From Cantharellus purpuraceus (taxonomy: Eukaryota > Basidiomycota > Agaricomycetes > Cantharellales > Hydnaceae), in the NCBI GenBank assembly GCA_025174535.1, contig JALBUN010000035.1, forward strand, positions 1 through 64,000: a stretch of 64,000 nucleotides of DNA. The letters are read 5' to 3'. Positions 9,042-47,998 of this stretch are shown piece after piece (positions within the stretch are counted from its first letter, which is position 1; every line of letters begins with the position of its first letter). The notes under the pieces were generated by a model. It was not told the DNA's origin. It saw only the letters and a list, made by a program, of their open reading frames with translations, and did no database searches. The position numbers and the translations under genes were made by a program.

Positions 9042-9191
9042 TGTTGGAATACCAGATACAGGATCCTACCATAACAACGCATCAACACAGGTTGTCACAA
9101 TATGGGACATTACTCATTCAATCCACATGACAACACTCCACCATATTTAAATCTATTTATTCCACTAGTACTTACTTCACAGCTGCGATGG

Positions 9192-9201
9192 TATATATAA
9201 A
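9192..9201 (+). promoter_or_regulatory. TATA box of the D1 copia LTR
   Basis: tatatataaa lies 25-35 nt upstream of the ccctcagttg segment that begins the duplicated leader, a normal distance for a pol II start at the R region. Confidence 0.65.
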
Positions 9202-9254
9202 GGAGTCGCAGCTGTCTCCCTTCCCTCAGTTGTGTTTAATACACACACACTGAG

Positions 9255-9309
9255 GTAGGGAGTTGCTTTGTTATCCCTAAATACTATGTTCACTTATTTC
9301 TCATTACAG
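9255..9309 (+). other. Intron-like GT..AG segment (55 nt) in the D1 LTR
   Basis: Starts gtaggg, has a ccctaaatac branch-like motif and a pyrimidine-rich stretch, and ends cattacag. The flanking E1 and E2 reappear precisely joined at 9338-9379, as splicing would produce. E1 copies differ only at two adjacent positions (TG versus CA), the signature of a decayed CpG. Confidence 0.6.
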
Positions 9310-9386
9310 TTTATCTGTCAAGGTATTTAGATTGTAGTCAGTCATGTTTAATACACACACACTGAGTTTATCTGTCAAGTATTTCA

Positions 9387-9402
9387 ATAGGTTATGGGCC
9401 CC
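9387..9402 (+). other. Primer-binding site resembling a half initiator-tRNA site
   Basis: ataggttatgggcccc follows the LTR end. From known biology, copia and Ty5 prime from an anticodon-cleaved initiator tRNA-Met, whose complement reads GGTTATGAGCCC. The site here agrees with that apart from one internal base. Confidence 0.55.
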
Positions 9403-33836: not shown

Positions 33837-34024
33837 TGATTACAAAGGATAAGGAATGTTTCGGTGGAGTTTTTTAGCCCTCAGTTGTCTATCTAACAAC
33901 TGAGGTGAGCATCAATCACTCTTAATAGTTTTTGTATCATTACTTACAATCAAATGTAGCCTGACATAGTACAGGTAATATAAGTTTAGTTGTCTATCTA
34001 ACAACTGAGCCTGACATAGTACAG
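33837..34024 (+). mobile_element. Copia-type LTR piece (family D2) with an intron-like segment
   Basis: E1 (33883-33904, agttgtctatctaacaactg ag), a 55-nt GT..AG segment (33905-33959, gtgagc...aatgtag), E2 (33960-33974, cctgacatagtacag), a gtaatataagttt spacer, then a perfect second E1 (33988-34009) joined directly to a perfect E2 (34010-34024). Same architecture as 9226-9379 with unrelated sequence. The LTR start is not determined. Confidence 0.6.
33905..33959 (+). other. Intron-like GT..AG segment (55 nt) in the D2 LTR
   Basis: Donor gtgagc, branch-like cttacaat/ttactta region, acceptor aatgtag. The exact joined product of its flanks is present at 33988-34024. Confidence 0.6.
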
Positions 34025-41250: not shown

Positions 41251-41528
41251 CATACTGATGGAATGGCAGAGTGGCAAGTGCAGACATGTGACAAACAAAT
41301 TGGCCAGATTCTCTTTGTAAGGAGCATAGCTCCATTACAATATAGCATCTGATCTGACCACAGGTCACTGTCAGGGTTCAAATAAGTCATATTCTATTTT
41401 TAGTATTTTCTCTTGACACCCCTATCAGCGCAGCCTGTCAGGGTGCGTCTCCCCTATTTCATTGCCCCTATCACTTCCCCTATCTTTCCTCCCCTATCTT
41501 GGTTCTCCTATCCGTCTCCATCATTTAG

Positions 41529-41534
41529 TATAAA
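41529..41534 (+). promoter_or_regulatory. TATA box of the G1 LTR
   Basis: tataaa in atttagtataaagact. Transcription should start ~30 nt downstream, just before the duplicated leader segment. Confidence 0.65.
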
Positions 41535-41595
41535 GACTCGCCTTGGTGCAGTGTGATCCCCTCAGCTTGATCTCTGAGGATATCCGCTGTACCAG

Positions 41596-41654
41596 GTAAG
41601 TCCCATGTATTTATCAGAAACAGCTGTATAGACTGAGGATATCCGCTGTACCAG
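41596..41654 (+). other. Intron-equivalent 59-nt segment in the G1 LTR
   Basis: Begins gtaagt and ends ccag. Its removal joins 41595 to 41655 and gives exactly the sequence of the 303-bp solo LTR at 55761-56063. Because a 22-bp direct repeat spans it, splicing and repeat-mediated deletion give the same product. Confidence 0.5.
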
Positions 41655-41798
41655 CTGGCATTATTTCTTATCGGCTCTCACTTATTGAGTATCTTGTTGT
41701 TGTGGCCTCGTCATCAGCGTTGCCCTCACAGAAGATCAAGCTCATAAGACGACCCCACACCTCATAACACTTTCCCTATTAACTACTTCACCGATACC

Positions 41799-42941
41799 AT
41801 GACTGATCAGCTCCCTGAAGCCTATTGGGACACTCTAGGTGAAAGTGGTGGCTTTCTGCGAGCGTTGTTCAACACCCAGGCGCAGCAGCTCCAGCAGCTG
41901 CAACTCCAGAACCAGCACCTCCAAAGCCAGTTCGCCAATGTCCAGAACAACCTAGCAGATGCTGCCACTGCTGCTGCCATCGCTGCAGCACAGACCATCT
42001 CTCAGACCACCTCATTTCCCACACCTTCTCCTACATCGTCATCCGTTCGCCCAATAAGGGCAGCTGAACCAGCCAAATTCAATGGAGATCGTGCAGAGAC
42101 AGAAGGTTTCATTCGCTCTATCAGGCTTGCCATTGCAGTCCAGCCTACATCTTTCCCAGATGAGCGGACCAAGATCCTCTATGCCCTCTCTTTTATGACA
42201 GGAGGTTCTGCTGAAGTATGGGCGCACAATGAGACACAGGCAGTCATTGACAGGACCTCACCGCTCTCCACCTTGGAGGAATTCATTAAGCAAGTGGAGA
42301 ACGCTTTTGGGGACCCTGACCGCTCTCGAACAGCACGAACAAAGCTACACGATCTTAGGATGACACCTGGCATGTCAGCGGATGAATACACGGCACAGTT
42401 TGAGATACTAGCAGGAAGGACTGGGTTTAATGATGCAGCACTGGAAGATGCCTATGCCCGAGGGCTCCCTGCAATGATTCTTGACAAGATCCATGCACAG
42501 CCATCCCTCCCATCCAATCTCAAGGCATGGAAGGAAGCGGCCTGTCAAATTGACCGCAACCACCGTCGTCTTCTAGAAGTGAGACGTGCTCAGACTTCCC
42601 TCACTCCTGCCCGCTCTACCCCATCCCGCCCTCACAGCACTCCGGTCATCTCTGTACCAACTACCTTGGCAACCTCTAATGGTGCTGCACCTATGGATAT
42701 TGACTCCAACCGCCATTGCATTGAGACTCGGACGTGCTATAACTGTGGAAAGCGTGGCCATATATCCCCAGCATGCCCTGAACCACGCAAGGAACGTATC
42801 CGAGCTGATCTCACACAAACAGCAATTGCAGGCATGATATCAGAGTCAGTAGCAGCTGCACTGAAGGCCAAGGAAGAAGCGCAGAAGGCAGTAATTCCAA
42901 AGCAAGAGGAGAAGCAGGATTTTCAGGCCAGTCAGCAGTGA
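41799..42941 (+). CDS. gag: G1a Gag
   Basis: 380 aa, ATG start in good context. Residues ~28-45 are a Gln/Leu coiled coil (QAQQLQQLQLQNQHLQSQF), followed by an Ala-rich linker and the Retrotrans_gag core (TKILYALSFMTGGSAEVWAH, LEEFIKQVENAFGDPDRS). A Pro/Ser linker precedes the zinc knuckle CYNCGKRGHISPAC near residue 310; the C-terminal helix is charged. It forms the virus-like particle and packages RNA. Its stop overlaps the next frame (gtga at 42938-42941), so protease is in the -1 frame, which suggests -1 frameshifting or reinitiation for Gag-Pol. Confidence 0.93.
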   Translation: MTDQLPEAYWDTLGESGGFLRALFNTQAQQLQQLQLQNQHLQSQFANVQNNLADAATAAAIAAAQTISQTTSFPTPSPTSSSVRPIRAAEPAKFNGDRAETEGFIRSIRLAIAVQPTSFPDERTKILYALSFMTGGSAEVWAHNETQAVIDRTSPLSTLEEFIKQVENAFGDPDRSRTARTKLHDLRMTPGMSADEYTAQFEILAGRTGFNDAALEDAYARGLPAMILDKIHAQPSLPSNLKAWKEAACQIDRNHRRLLEVRRAQTSLTPARSTPSRPHSTPVISVPTTLATSNGAAPMDIDSNRHCIETRTCYNCGKRGHISPACPEPRKERIRADLTQTAIAGMISESVAAALKAKEEAQKAVIPKQEEKQDFQASQQ

Positions 42942-43969
42942 AGAGCATGCCCTGCCTGACAAACCGGTTTTCAGTTCTTGAATCATGTACTGTAGGGCTC
43001 ACAAGCGATATGTTACACGCACACTCCCTTGTCCATCAGACTGAAACCAAAACAGCCATGCCTGAAAACCCTTCTCAACTTTCAGCTAAACATGATGACC
43101 CTCCTCGTCTCTACCTTCGATCTGCAGACATCCGTCGATGTACAAGAATTCCCATGAAAATCCACTCGGTAGACACTGGATACCCTCTAGCTGTGGATGC
43201 ACTCCTCGATAGTGGTGCTACAGGAATGTTCATTGATGCAGAATATGTCAAAGCAGAGAAACTTCGAACACGCCCTCTACCACGTGCCATACCTGTTTAT
43301 AACATTGATGGGACCCCAAATGAAGCAGGTTCAATCAAGGAAGAAGTCGATCTCATCTGCACATATGGGACCCATACTGAACGTGCCACATTTTCAGTCA
43401 CAAGCCTGGGAACCTTTGGCATAATTGTTGGGCACACCTGGCTTGTGAAGCACAACCCAGAGGTAGACTGGCGTACAGGAAAGGTACAGATGACTCGCTG
43501 CCCTGATTCATGTGGAGAAGTACCAGAACACAAAGAGCATTCGCTTGGTACAACTCCTTCAAATGGCAAGAACTCACACGGGCAACCCCAATACGAGGGA
43601 GACCGAACATTTGTTATCTTTGTAGAAGAAGACTTGGAGAATATCTATGCTGGTTCAACAGTTTCTCAACAGCTCGCACAGAAGGCTGCAGAATCCACTC
43701 CAGTCAAAACCTTTGAGGAGATTGTCCCAAAGGCGTACTGGGGATTTAAGGATGTTTTTGCAAAGGAGTCCTTTGACCAACTTCCACCTCGAAAACTGTG
43801 GGACCACGCTATTGAACTCACTCCAGGAGCACAACCCTTCAGCACAAAGGTCTATCCAATGTCCCCAAATGAGCAGAAGGAGTTGGACGCATTCCTTGAG
43901 GAGAACCTACGGAATCATCGTGATACGCCCTTCCAAGTCACCCATGGCATCCCCTGTCTTTTTTTGTGA
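42938..43969 (+). CDS. G1a protease region
   Basis: 343-codon frame. Retropepsin motif ALLDSGATGMFID near residue 90 holds the catalytic Asp, and FGIIVGHTWLVKHNPEVDW is the C-terminal protease segment. The rest (FEEIVPKAYWGFKDVFAKES, ELTPGAQPFSTKVYPMSPNE) is the protease/RT connector. The frame is lost after ENLRNHR, where an extra base near 43922 appears relative to the older copy at 22030, so the true continuation lies in another frame. Confidence 0.88.
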   Translation: MKSMPCLTNRFSVLESCTVGLTSDMLHAHSLVHQTETKTAMPENPSQLSAKHDDPPRLYLRSADIRRCTRIPMKIHSVDTGYPLAVDALLDSGATGMFIDAEYVKAEKLRTRPLPRAIPVYNIDGTPNEAGSIKEEVDLICTYGTHTERATFSVTSLGTFGIIVGHTWLVKHNPEVDWRTGKVQMTRCPDSCGEVPEHKEHSLGTTPSNGKNSHGQPQYEGDRTFVIFVEEDLENIYAGSTVSQQLAQKAAESTPVKTFEEIVPKAYWGFKDVFAKESFDQLPPRKLWDHAIELTPGAQPFSTKVYPMSPNEQKELDAFLEENLRNHRDTPFQVTHGIPCLFL

Positions 43970-46839
43970 AGAAGAAGGACGGTAATCTTCGTTTTGTGCA
44001 AGACTACCGCAAGCTGAATGATATCACAATCAAGAACGCCTACCCACTACCCCTGGTACCAGACATCATGAATAAAATTGCCGCAGCCAATGCCAAGTAC
44101 TTTACCAAGCTTGACATCCGATGGGGATATAACAATGTGCGTATTAAAGAGGGCGATGAGTGGAAGGCAGCCTTTCGAACCAATCGTGGTCTATTTGAAC
44201 CCCTGGTCATGTTCTTTGGTCTCACAAACAGCCCAGCAACCTTCCAGACGATGATGAATGGCATTTTCAAGGAGCTCATTGACGATGGCACTATGGTAGT
44301 GTTCATGGACGACATCCTCATTTTCACTGAATCCCTAGAACAACACCACACGATCGTGCAATCTGTCCTTGAAATTCTTCAGGCCAACCACCTGTACCTC
44401 AAACCAGAGAAATGCCTTTTCTCGCAACAGAAGGTAGATTATCTTGGATTGATTCTCTCACAGGGACAGGTAGCTATGGACCCAGTTAAGGTGGCTGGAG
44501 TCAGGGACTGGCCCACACCGCGCAATGTGACAGAAGTCAAATCCTTCCTGGGTTTCATCAATTTCTATCGTCGCTTCATTGAGGACTTCTCACATATCGC
44601 AAAGCCTCTGAATCGGTTAACAAAGGCAGATACACAGTGGTCTTGGATACCTGATGGCCCAGAACAAGAAGCCTTTGATAAACTCAAGCAGCTTGTCACG
44701 TCAACTCCAATCCTTGTCCTCCCAGATCAAACCAAGCATTTTCGACTAGAGACAGATGCTTCAGCATATGCAACAGGTGCTGTTCTATCTCAACTCTGTG
44801 ACGATGAGAAATGGAGGCCGGTAGGTTTTGTATCCAAGAGCCTTTCAGATGCAGAGCGCAACTATGCCATCCATGATAAGGAATTGCTCTCAGTCATCCG
44901 TGGACTAGAAGAATGGCGCCACATCTTGGAAGGGACCAAATACAAGATTGAAATCCTTAACGACCATCAAAACCTCACATATTTCCGTACAGCTCAAAAT
45001 CTCAATCGTCGACAAGCTCGCTGGTCACTATACCTTTCTCGTTTTGACTTTGAACTGATCCACCGTCCTGGACGACATTCAGCCAAACCTGATGCCCTCT
45101 CACGACGTGTAGATCATAAGCGGGGGGAGGAAGATAACCAGAACCAGATTCTTCTTGGCCCTGAGCTGTTCCACATCGATGCGACATCCACCTATCCAGG
45201 GCCAGAAGCTCAAATGATCACAGGAGAAGGAGACATATTCCTGGAACGTGTGCGGAATTGCACCAACAGAGATGAAAAGGTTGTAAAGGCTCTTAAGGAA
45301 CTTGGCCCCTCTCGGAATTTACGAGGACAGGAATGGACCGAGGAGAATGGACTCGTCCTCTATCGTGGCAAGGTATATGTCCCTCTTGACCCAAAATTGC
45401 GCCATGACATTGTAAGGGCACACCACGATACTCACATTACAGGTCACCCTGGTCGCTGGAGAACAACAGAACTTGTATCCCGCAGCTACTGGTGGCCTGG
45501 ATTTGGACGATACATTGCCAAATACGTCAAGGGATGTGACCTCTGCAATCGGACAAAAACTTTCCCTGCTCCTCCTATGGGTAAACTCCTGCCTAATCGT
45601 GTCCCAGATCGGAGGTGGCAAGTGATATCTGTTGACCTTATTGTAGAACTACCCATCAGCCATGGCTATGATGCACTCCTTGTCGTTGTGGACCGTCTTT
45701 CCAAACGAGCACATGTTATCCCTACCACCTCTGACATCAACTCCATAGGAGTTGCACGACTTTTCCGAGACCATGTGTGGAAACACCACGGCCTTCCTGA
45801 GGAGATCATCAGTGACCGTGGCACCCAGTTTGTCTCTCAATTTATGCGTGAGCTCAATAAGCTTTTGGGGATCAAGGTTGCAGCATCCACAGCATATCAT
45901 CCACAAACCGATGGTCAGACGGAAAGGGTCAATCAAGAAATTGAACAATACTTGAGGCTTTTCGTCAATCAGCGCCAGGATGACTGGATTGAGTGGGTTC
46001 CTCTTGCCGAATTCACATACAACAACCGCATCCACTCCTCCACGCAATCAACCCCCTTCATGCTTGATACAGGCCAACACCCAAGGCTTGGGTTAGAGCC
46101 AATCCGAGAGACACGACTTGAAGCACTGGAAGAATTCACTGAGCGTATGGAGACAGCCACCACTGAGGCTCGCTCCGCCCTGGAAAAGGCAGCAGATGAT
46201 ATGGCACAATTCTATGACGCCCATCGGCAAGCAGCCCCAGTATACAAACTTGGTGACAAGGTCTGGCTCAATGCACAAAATATCACCACCACCCGTCCAA
46301 CCAAGAAACTTGATCACAAATGGTTAGGACCGTATGTGATTAATAAAGTGGTCTCACGAAATGCCTATGGCCTACGACTTCCCCCAATCTTTGGCCGCAC
46401 TCATCCAGTGTTCTCTGTTGTCTTACTCCGTCCTTATGAAAAGGATCCCATCCCTGAACGCCAGTCATCTCCTCCACCACCTCCAGTCATTCGAGATGGA
46501 GTACAGGAATATGAAGTTGAGAAGATCCTTGACAGCAGAGTTTTCCGAGGAAGACTGGAATACCTGGTGCGTTGGAAGGGCTATGGAGCTGCTGACGACC
46601 TCTGGATCCCAGCTAAGGATGCCAGTGGGGCTAGAAGGCGCATTGCAGACTTCCATCAGGAAAATCCTGAAGCCCCAAGGCGTATTTCGGCAGCCACCTA
46701 TGCGGCTCTTCCCTTCAGACGCTTTGAGAACTTCACAGAACCTCCCAAACAGGTCCTCTTTGATTGGACAGCTGGCAGGAACCCAACACGTGGTATTGGA
46801 CACATTTCAGAGCTGCAGAATAGGCACAGTGAAGCTTAG
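43966..46839 (+). CDS. pol: G1a Pol: RT, RNase H, integrase, chromodomain
   Basis: 957-codon frame. RT: NLRFVQDYRKLNDITIKNAY, YFTKLDIRWGYNNVRI (first Asp) and VVFMDDILIFTES (FMDD). RNase H: RLETDASAYATGAVLSQ and AIHDKELLSVIRGLEEWRHI. Integrase zinc finger: HHDTHITGHPGRW ... CDLCNRTK. Core: ISVDLIVELP (D), IISDRGTQFVSQF (D), TDGQTERVNQEIEQYLR (E). C-terminus: a GPY/F-type segment (KWLGPYVINKVVS) and chromodomain YEVEKILDSRVFRGRLEYLV RWKGYG. All catalytic residues are present. The frame begins just after a T7 run (43959-43965) that seems to hold one extra base. The chromodomain probably targets integration to heterochromatin. Confidence 0.93.
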   Translation: MKKKDGNLRFVQDYRKLNDITIKNAYPLPLVPDIMNKIAAANAKYFTKLDIRWGYNNVRIKEGDEWKAAFRTNRGLFEPLVMFFGLTNSPATFQTMMNGIFKELIDDGTMVVFMDDILIFTESLEQHHTIVQSVLEILQANHLYLKPEKCLFSQQKVDYLGLILSQGQVAMDPVKVAGVRDWPTPRNVTEVKSFLGFINFYRRFIEDFSHIAKPLNRLTKADTQWSWIPDGPEQEAFDKLKQLVTSTPILVLPDQTKHFRLETDASAYATGAVLSQLCDDEKWRPVGFVSKSLSDAERNYAIHDKELLSVIRGLEEWRHILEGTKYKIEILNDHQNLTYFRTAQNLNRRQARWSLYLSRFDFELIHRPGRHSAKPDALSRRVDHKRGEEDNQNQILLGPELFHIDATSTYPGPEAQMITGEGDIFLERVRNCTNRDEKVVKALKELGPSRNLRGQEWTEENGLVLYRGKVYVPLDPKLRHDIVRAHHDTHITGHPGRWRTTELVSRSYWWPGFGRYIAKYVKGCDLCNRTKTFPAPPMGKLLPNRVPDRRWQVISVDLIVELPISHGYDALLVVVDRLSKRAHVIPTTSDINSIGVARLFRDHVWKHHGLPEEIISDRGTQFVSQFMRELNKLLGIKVAASTAYHPQTDGQTERVNQEIEQYLRLFVNQRQDDWIEWVPLAEFTYNNRIHSSTQSTPFMLDTGQHPRLGLEPIRETRLEALEEFTERMETATTEARSALEKAADDMAQFYDAHRQAAPVYKLGDKVWLNAQNITTTRPTKKLDHKWLGPYVINKVVSRNAYGLRLPPIFGRTHPVFSVVLLRPYEKDPIPERQSSPPPPPVIRDGVQEYEVEKILDSRVFRGRLEYLVRWKGYGAADDLWIPAKDASGARRRIADFHQENPEAPRRISAATYAALPFRRFENFTEPPKQVLFDWTAGRNPTRGIGHISELQNRHSEA

Positions 46840-46878
46840 CGCTCACCAAATTCATCCATGCCGAAATTCCACTAACTG

Positions 46879-46886
46879 TATATAAG
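46879..46886 (+). promoter_or_regulatory. Internal TATA box before the third ORF
   Basis: tatataag in ctgtatataagccag, 60 nt upstream of the ATG. The same element is kept in the decayed copy (24977-24984). Confidence 0.55.
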
Positions 46887-46945
46887 CCAGTGAATCCACT
46901 TCCCCTTCCTCAGTAAAACCATCATCGTTCACTACCCAACCCACC

Positions 46946-47383
46946 ATGCCTTACCAGTCTGAATCCACCCCTCTACGCTCACTCCGTTCCTACCCCTCAA
47001 TCACTTGGTCAGTTGACTCAAGGGATACTGCACGTGCTGTAGAGGATTATAACCTCCCATCTCCACCTCCACAAGTTCATTTCCCCTTCTGGCATCGTAA
47101 TCCATCCAGACGCCAGACATACTACATCGGGGACCCTCTATTCATCGGCAACTATGACATACCATATGCCTTCCAAGGGCTCGCCGGTAAAGTCACCTAT
47201 GAGGGAGGGGAGATGATACTTGGGGCAGTTTTCAGCACGAACAATCCCATATCCCCTGGAGAGTTCACCATCCCACTTTACCCCAAGGCAGAGAAGAGTC
47301 ACCATCAACACTCGTCATGGGCTCTACTTTGGCAGAGAGTGAGAAGGGACCTTGCAGAGTGCTTCAGGGTGTGTCTCTCTTGA
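46946..47383 (+). CDS. G1a third ORF, unknown function (145 aa)
   Basis: ATG in ccaccATGcc context. MPYQSESTPLRSLRSYPSIT, then WSVDSRDTARAVEDYNLPSP, RQTYYIGDPLFIGNYDIPYA and FQGLAGKVTYEGGEMILGAV, ending WALLWQRVRRDLAECFRVCL. No signal peptide, no membrane helix, no known domain; predicted as a small globular mixed alpha/beta protein. It has homologues at 25050-25480 (same family, decayed) and 26402-26806 (different family), so it is a conserved accessory gene and not chance open frame. It sits where env genes sit in errantiviruses, but nothing supports that role. Confidence 0.75.
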   Translation: MPYQSESTPLRSLRSYPSITWSVDSRDTARAVEDYNLPSPPPQVHFPFWHRNPSRRQTYYIGDPLFIGNYDIPYAFQGLAGKVTYEGGEMILGAVFSTNNPISPGEFTIPLYPKAEKSHHQHSSWALLWQRVRRDLAECFRVCLS

Positions 47384-47419
47384 GATGGATGGGACGATAG
47401 TGCATATCGAGACGACATG

Positions 47420-47436
47420 CATTAAGAGGGAGGTGA
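47420..47436 (+). other. Polypurine tract of G1a
   Basis: attaagagggaggtga immediately before the 3' LTR. This is the expected plus-strand primer. Confidence 0.7.
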
Positions 47437-47798
47437 TGTCAGGGTTCAAATAAGTCATATTCTATTTTTAGTATTTTCTCTTGACACCCCTATCAGCGCA
47501 GCCTGTCAGGGTGCGTCTCCCCTATTTCATTGCCCCTATCACTTCCCCTATCTTTCCTCCCCTATCTTGGTTCTCCTATCCGTCTCCATCATTTAGTATA
47601 AAGACTCGCCTTGGTGCAGTGTGATCCCCTCAGCTTGATCTCTGAGGATATCCGCTGTACCAGGTAAGTCCCATGTATTTATCAGAAACAGCTGTATAGA
47701 CTGAGGATATCCGCTGTACCAGCTGGCATTATTTCTTATCGGCTCTCACTTATTGAGTATCTTGTTGTTGTGGCCTCGTCATCAGCGTTGCCCTCACA
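47437..47798 (+). mobile_element. 3' LTR of G1a
   Basis: 362 bp, reads as identical to 41369-41730 when compared by eye. Confidence 0.95.
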
Positions 47799-47998
47799 GT
47801 CACATGGATTATCTTTACAAGAATGGGTGCCATTGGCTTTTGTGGTATATAACAGTCAAGGACACTGAGGCAGTTGAAAACTTGACAAGCCAACCTGGCA
47901 CAGAATGCAGGAACCATGTCTGAGGCACAGGGTCAGTACCAAGTGCAGAACATGGTCAAGGAGGACATCAGTTTGACTGGGTTATTGACAGAGGACAG
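47799..47998. other. Target-site flank of G1a, unassigned
   Basis: Continues the sequence interrupted by G1a (ctgaccacaggtcac / gtcacatggattatc). No gene recognised. It ends at the P LTR. Confidence 0.4.

Follow-up and report, generated by a model that had tools for sequence, protein, structure and literature searches.

A Ty1/copia long terminal repeat of Cantharellus purpuraceus that appears to hold an intron-containing leader beside a stored spliced copy

Families of LTR retrotransposons in the basidiomycete Cantharellus purpuraceus seem to keep an intron in their leader by storing a spliced copy beside it. Judging from sequence comparison, we consider it quite probable that the LTR of these elements holds a pre-mRNA leader (E1-intron 1-E2) together with its stored spliced form (E1'E2'), and that the two are joined in one replication cycle. 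Introns are normally erased when RNA is copied back to DNA, which is why an intron-marked Ty1 was a classic proof of an RNA stage. More tentatively, we propose that the terminal redundancy for minus-strand transfer is made by splicing: the stored spliced copy would act as the landing site, be spliced out of the next RNA and be rewritten each generation, and the intron would thereby be inherited through reverse transcription.

Results

The window, i.e. the whole stretch of DNA analysed (64,000 nt; positions 1 to 64,000 of the forward strand of contig JALBUN010000035.1, assembly GCA_025174535.1), contains an LTR with the order U3 - TATA - E1 - intron 1 - E2 - spacer - E1' - E2' - TATTTCAATA - PBS (Table 1). 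Direct reading upheld the layout claimed by an earlier sequence-only reading, with its boundaries: the 29-nt E1 (9226-9254) recurs as E1' (9338-9366) with 93% identity and two adjacent differences (TG/CA), the 55 nt between E1 and E2 are exactly absent at the E1'/E2' join, the 13-nt E2 is identical to E2', and a 15-nt spacer (9323-9337) lies between E2 and E1'. A TATA box and a PBS-like sequence are likewise present where the same reading had placed a TATA box (just upstream of this block) and a half-tRNA PBS (just downstream). The LTR borders were set by alignment of genome copies, in which the match spans 9042 to 9387, and by the terminal CAATA before the PBS, which moves the end to 9389. 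When the TG/CA difference was checked against 14 other tandem copies of the family, CG was found at that place in both E1 and E1' in seven, in one of them in four and in neither in three, and the difference looks like two decay products of one CpG.

Table 1. Features of the two LTR leaders in the window
Feature	Position	Strand	Basis
5' LTR, Ty1/copia element, tandem (T) type, 348 bp, TGTTGGAAT...TTTCAATA	9042..9389	+	genome-copy alignment; solo copies with 5-bp target duplications
TATA box TATATATAA	9192..9200	+	TATA-to-A spacing across copies
Predicted cap site A, Inr-like CTCAGT	9228	+	TATA-to-A spacing
E1, cap-proximal hairpin exon	9228..9254	+	direct reading; hairpin in 21/21 representatives
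Predicted intron 1, GTAGGG...TTACAG, 55 nt	9255..9309	+	GT..AG in 75/81 tandem leaders
E2, short exon, AG at end	9310..9322	+	direct reading; leader comparison
Proposed intron 2 (spacer+E1'+E2'), GTATTT...GTCAAG, 57 nt	9323..9379	+	GT..AG in 70/81
Junction bases, TC in this copy, hypervariable among copies	9338..9339	+	copy comparison
E1', E1 copy without intron behind	9340..9366	+	direct reading
E2', E2 copy	9367..9379	+	direct reading
PBS-like GGTTATGGGCCC	9390..9401	+	genome motif count
Truncated internal remnant: gag-like frame start, ATG 9451, stop after 30 codons	9402..9671	+	direct reading
Second LTR leader, like architecture, different sequence type	33883..34024	+	repeat-order finder; comparison
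Second leader, E1	33883..33904	+	finder and reading
Second leader, intron	33905..33959	+	finder and reading
Second leader, E2	33960..33974	+	finder and reading
Second leader, spacer	33975..33987	+	finder and reading
Second leader, E1'	33988..34009	+	finder and reading
Second leader, E2'	34010..34024	+	finder and reading

The element is a Ty1/copia LTR retrotransposon by its TG..CA-like LTR ends, the 5-bp target duplications of solo copies and integrase upstream of RVT_2, the domains being read in L083 and L107, which are relatives of other families. L083 carries Retrotran_gag_2, gag_pre-integrs, rve and then RVT_2, the copia order, in three ORF pieces; its rve match (31.6 bits) lies just under the cut-off of 32.6, and that of L107 scores 59 bits. 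The best 120 of 6672 scored relatives of the L083 reverse transcriptase piece are mostly unnamed metagenome proteins, and a named relative among the matches listed comes from the fungus Hericium alpestre (55%). Perfect 5-bp target duplications flank solo LTRs of the tandem (T; L014), single-unspliced (U; L028 and L077) and single-spliced (S; L031 and L042) classes described below; none was found at the LTR ends of the window copy, because this copy is truncated, another repeat following its internal remnant from about 9672. The PBS motif MWAYAGGTTATGGGCCC, which is of the AGGTTATGGGCCC type, occurs at 127 genome sites versus 0 for a reversed control, and the PBS-like sequence of the window, which resembles the copia PBS, may be of the half initiator-tRNA type of Drosophila copia. 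Elsewhere in the window, an LTR-like pair of 363 bp with 100% identity (41369-47799) suggests a recent insertion of another element.

A chance origin of the repeat order was rejected with a finder that required only this order and an AG ending E1. It gave no match in 10 dinucleotide-shuffled windows (both strands) and two, neither with GT..AG, in 29 viral-contig loci that carry the PBS pattern (227,732 bases in all) and served as negative control only. Viral contigs held no useful relative (one 29% match). Matches with GT..AG occurred in 73 of the 134 fetched LTR loci; in the real window the finder also picked up the second LTR, at 33889, plus nine rows without GT..AG.

The genome to which the element belongs, 40.15 Mb in 50 contigs, was searched using seven leader queries and the second window LTR, and we read the leaders of 134 fetched loci and the window as well as 70 distinct PBS-anchored leaders from the 127 PBS sites; the counts are lower bounds and the sample is biased towards relatives. 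The T order (E1-intron-E2-spacer-E1'-E2') recurs in about 21 E1/E2 sequence types, including that of the second window leader, some of them closely related (H82/H92, F30/F34, J71/J128), and introns and spacers differ among the types while the order stays common to all. The tabulation of related LTRs by their E1-E2 copies, which the sequence-only reading had suggested as a check, yielded tandem and both single forms: an automatic classification of the 134 loci and the window, from which segmental duplicates (L009, L025, L044, L046, L082) and loci covered by longer ones (L035, L036, L038, L039) were left out, gave 79 T, 20 U, 24 S, 15 other and one doubtful leader. Inspection by eye traced 13 of the 24 S rows to the E1' of T copies, so that 11 S LTRs, belonging to 10 elements, remain; among the 20 U rows, four (L024, L051, L090, L117) are T copies that have been damaged, and 16 U LTRs remain; and the doubtful L070 is a T leader whose E2 starts with GT. 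The full element L083 has T leaders in both LTRs, alike at 100% over 296 bases. The form E1-E2-spacer-E1'-E2', in which intron 1 alone would be gone, was absent from the 134 classified loci and the window.

Other arrangements were seen as well. Many of the 70 PBS-anchored leaders read, out of 127 sites, belong, by eye, to copia elements without the E1 hairpin, for example the family beginning TGTTGGAATGCACTGAAGG, and several copia lineages combine the same PBS with no hairpin leader. At L043 and L044 the match of the 3' LTR stops at the 3' end of intron 1 and other sequence follows. L045 and L046 (C22:40000-45500 and C16:364000-369500), apparently a segmental duplication, have single spliced leaders in both LTRs.

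Intron 1 has GT..AG ends in 75 of 81 tandem leaders, is 38-63 nt long and differs between families in interior and length. Such a length is typical of fungal introns, and with its splice-site ends and diverging interior the segment fits a spliceosomal intron that would be spliced from the leader. The stretch made of spacer, E1' and E2' looks like a second GT-AG intron (GT..AG in 70/81, 48-58 nt): the spacer starts with GT in 19 of the 21 sequence types (all but F30 and J71, each represented by a single copy), and every one of the 21 includes at least one copy in which E2 or E2' has AG at its end. If intron 2 is removed, the spliced leader E1-E2-u5-PBS is exactly the unit stored as E1'E2'; without its removal, every cycle should either lengthen the leader by one unit or lose intron 1, and the classified loci showed neither of these.

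All 21 representatives of E1, prefixed with CTC, give a hairpin on folding (z between -3.8 and -7.6 versus mononucleotide shuffles), and the hairpin is kept although the stem sequence differs among them; the RNA stem begins at the predicted cap site A(+1). TATA and A(+1) are 31-36 nt apart in nearly all copies with a TATA match, and no match of that form was found in D55, E67, I102, J71 and J128. An Rfam search returned one match, far under the gathering score.

E1 and E1', as well as E2 and E2', evolve in concert, as judged from family comparisons. Of 14 families, 9 have the same majority sequence in E1 and E1', and 12 in E2 and E2'; the own-family E1 is (jointly) nearest to E1' in 13 of 14. 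Distances between families average 0.30 in E1, 0.37 in E2 and 0.40 in intron 1, with minima of 0.04, 0.00 and 0.19, respectively. The majority E1 and E1' differ by CpG-type changes in F30, B38 and G133 (one to three copies each), by three other transitions in D55 (one copy) and by an inverted hairpin loop in J128. Within copies, E1 and E1' differ at 115 of 2136 sites, 52 of them non-CpG, a count that includes inverted and misaligned copies. Subfamily changes occur in both units: L109-L112 have ATTGTCC for ATTATCC in E2 as well as E2', and the H92 group has an extra A in E1 as well as E1'. This calls for repeated copying from one unit to the other. Such copying would not be invariable: L126 and L127 (J128) have an upstream E1 whose hairpin loop is inverted beside a normal E1' (AGAAG versus CTTCT), which means that a strict rewriting of E1' from E1 does not take place in each cycle; in L124 the two loops have like orientation.

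The join between spacer and E1' is hypervariable. The base before the AG of E1' (position -1) is C in 26, T in 26, A in 19 and G in 6 of 77 copies, versus C in 74, T in 2 and G in 1 of 77 before E1 (Fisher p 2.4e-17); this count leaves out segmental duplicates, the second LTRs of L083 and L107 and any row that lacks AG at either start. Position -1 is the most variable column of spacer+E1'+E2' in families A, C54 and H82 and ranks within the top three in G73; all its variation in A (C/T) and G73 (A/G) is by transition, strong transversions being confined to C54 and H82, and in family A the preceding base also takes T, C or G. On trees built from U3 to spacer with the join left out, -1 changes like shuffled labels in A, C54 and H82/H92 (178, 141 and 196 of 300 shuffles, respectively, no greater than observed); in G73 (33 of 300) the junction base leans towards inheritance. 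Both LTRs of one element share their -1 base in the two T-type pairs of the sample (C in L083, G in L107). Taken across families, the junction base looks untemplated. E1' begins at the predicted cap site or no more than a few bases away from it; a match between E1 and E1' reaches 2-5 nt further upstream of A(+1) in some copies of J71, J128, E67, G133 and B38 and in 6 of 15 family-A copies, so either start sites vary or those bases are templated.

Among the S and U copies, E1 is preceded by C in 27 of 27 listed out of 33, a filter for CT, TTC or CCC context having been applied. For this reason an origin of S and U LTRs by extra-base transfer onto E1 was rejected and we read them as direct-repeat deletions; cDNA ends with extra bases would thus be seen at the E1' join and not at E1.

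Discussion

On the basis of these comparisons, we propose the following cycle. Transcription would start at A(+1) of E1, and both intron 1 and intron 2 (spacer+E1'+E2') would leave the 5' leader to give E1-E2-u5-PBS. Minus-strand strong-stop cDNA of this spliced leader would reach the cap, gain one or two untemplated bases and be joined, directly downstream of the spacer, to the 3' LTR. On this unspliced 3' LTR, synthesis would then continue across spacer, E2, intron 1, E1 and U3 and, with intron 1 copied from there, each new LTR would keep the intron and a freshly written E1'E2'. The role of the stored copy would be to keep the intron through RNA-based copying.

The landing step may most likely proceed by annealing to the existing E1'E2' along some 40 nt, a reading that we offer tentatively and that is favoured by the nearly constant junction length (17 nt in 14 of 15 family-A copies, 13 nt in 11 of 11 C54 copies). 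We regard it as rather unlikely that the strong-stop cDNA instead jumps to the very 3' end of the RNA, with the poly(A) site at the spacer end and E1'E2' a by-product removed by intron 2. The join indeed consists of two template ends with one or two additional bases between them, each family has a constant spacer end, and L094 (H92), where E1' is shortened and four A in a row stand at its join with the spacer, looks as a poly(A) trace would; yet the adjoining 40-nt match would go unused, and the constancy of junction length speaks against such a jump. A variable base exactly at the join could also come from misreading during reverse transcription through a branched (2'-5') joint between RNA 5' end and 3' LTR, akin to a proposal made for Ty1 in the part of PMC1266399 available to us, but the branch would need to sit at the spacer end in every family, and we consider this very improbable.

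Improbable, though less so than the branched joint, is a history without regular rewriting, in which the spliced leader was retro-duplicated once, long ago, and later homogenised by ordinary template switching, E1 with E1' and E2 with E2'. Spacers alike across several families indicate that the leader order is old, single-unit LTRs resembling direct-repeat deletions exist (11 S and 16 U), and the E1/E1' mismatch in J128 would fit. Left unexplained, however, are a base that is hypervariable only at the join and has no tree signal in three of four families, and the GT at the spacer start of 19 of 21 sequence types. A tandem duplication of E1E2 followed by insertion of a 55-bp element into the first unit, the case that the sequence-only reading had named as counter to its own, agrees with the arrangement in general form only. 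We rejected it, its probability being negligible: the segment has GT..AG ends in 75 of 81 leaders, differs between families and sits at a like place in about 21 sequence types.

Regular rewriting by strand transfer is the reading that we retain. The sequence-only reading had proposed that spliced leader cDNA was set beside the unspliced form by a strand-transfer slip. The transfer gains support, at the level of sequence, from concerted evolution, from a hypervariable base at the join that is absent before E1 and from the start of E1' near the predicted cap; the one-off slip does not stand, since about 21 types share the order and the join appears to be repeatedly remade. If the cycle is true, it would add a way of minus-strand transfer and link splicing to retroelement replication, the junction base would be a natural mark of the transfer event, and why such elements need a leader intron would become testable.

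The novelty of the stored spliced leader is provisional. No paper found in the open-licence literature, outside which subscription journals largely lie, describes in its title or abstract start an LTR that contains an intron beside a stored spliced copy. PMC5445492, on fungal Copia elements, makes no mention of intron, splic, tandem, R region, leader or basidiomycete, and in PMC3601003, on LTR structure, "splic" is absent and "intron" occurs in a reference only.

Among known systems, the branched-RNA model of Ty1 minus-strand transfer also links spliceosome-like chemistry with strand transfer, and the part of its description available to us has no LTR intron (PMC1266399). RNA of the plant elements BARE, EVADE and Ogre is spliced as well, according to the available parts of PMC3735527 and PMC12786077, and there yields subgenomic RNA; the introns proposed here, in contrast, belong to the LTR leader upstream of the PBS, and it is the spliced form that would be the template for cDNA. 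In the intron-marked Ty1 reporter, as presented in the available part of PMC12786077, an intron passes through the RNA stage too and is lost in new copies, whereas the present intron is kept. With Ty1/copia elements (Pseudoviridae) at large, the elements of C. purpuraceus share LTR ends, 5-bp target duplications, gag, integrase before RVT_2 and a PBS that may be of the copia type; what sets them apart is the LTR leader, with its GT-AG intron and, beside it, a stored spliced form that is apparently rewritten during replication.
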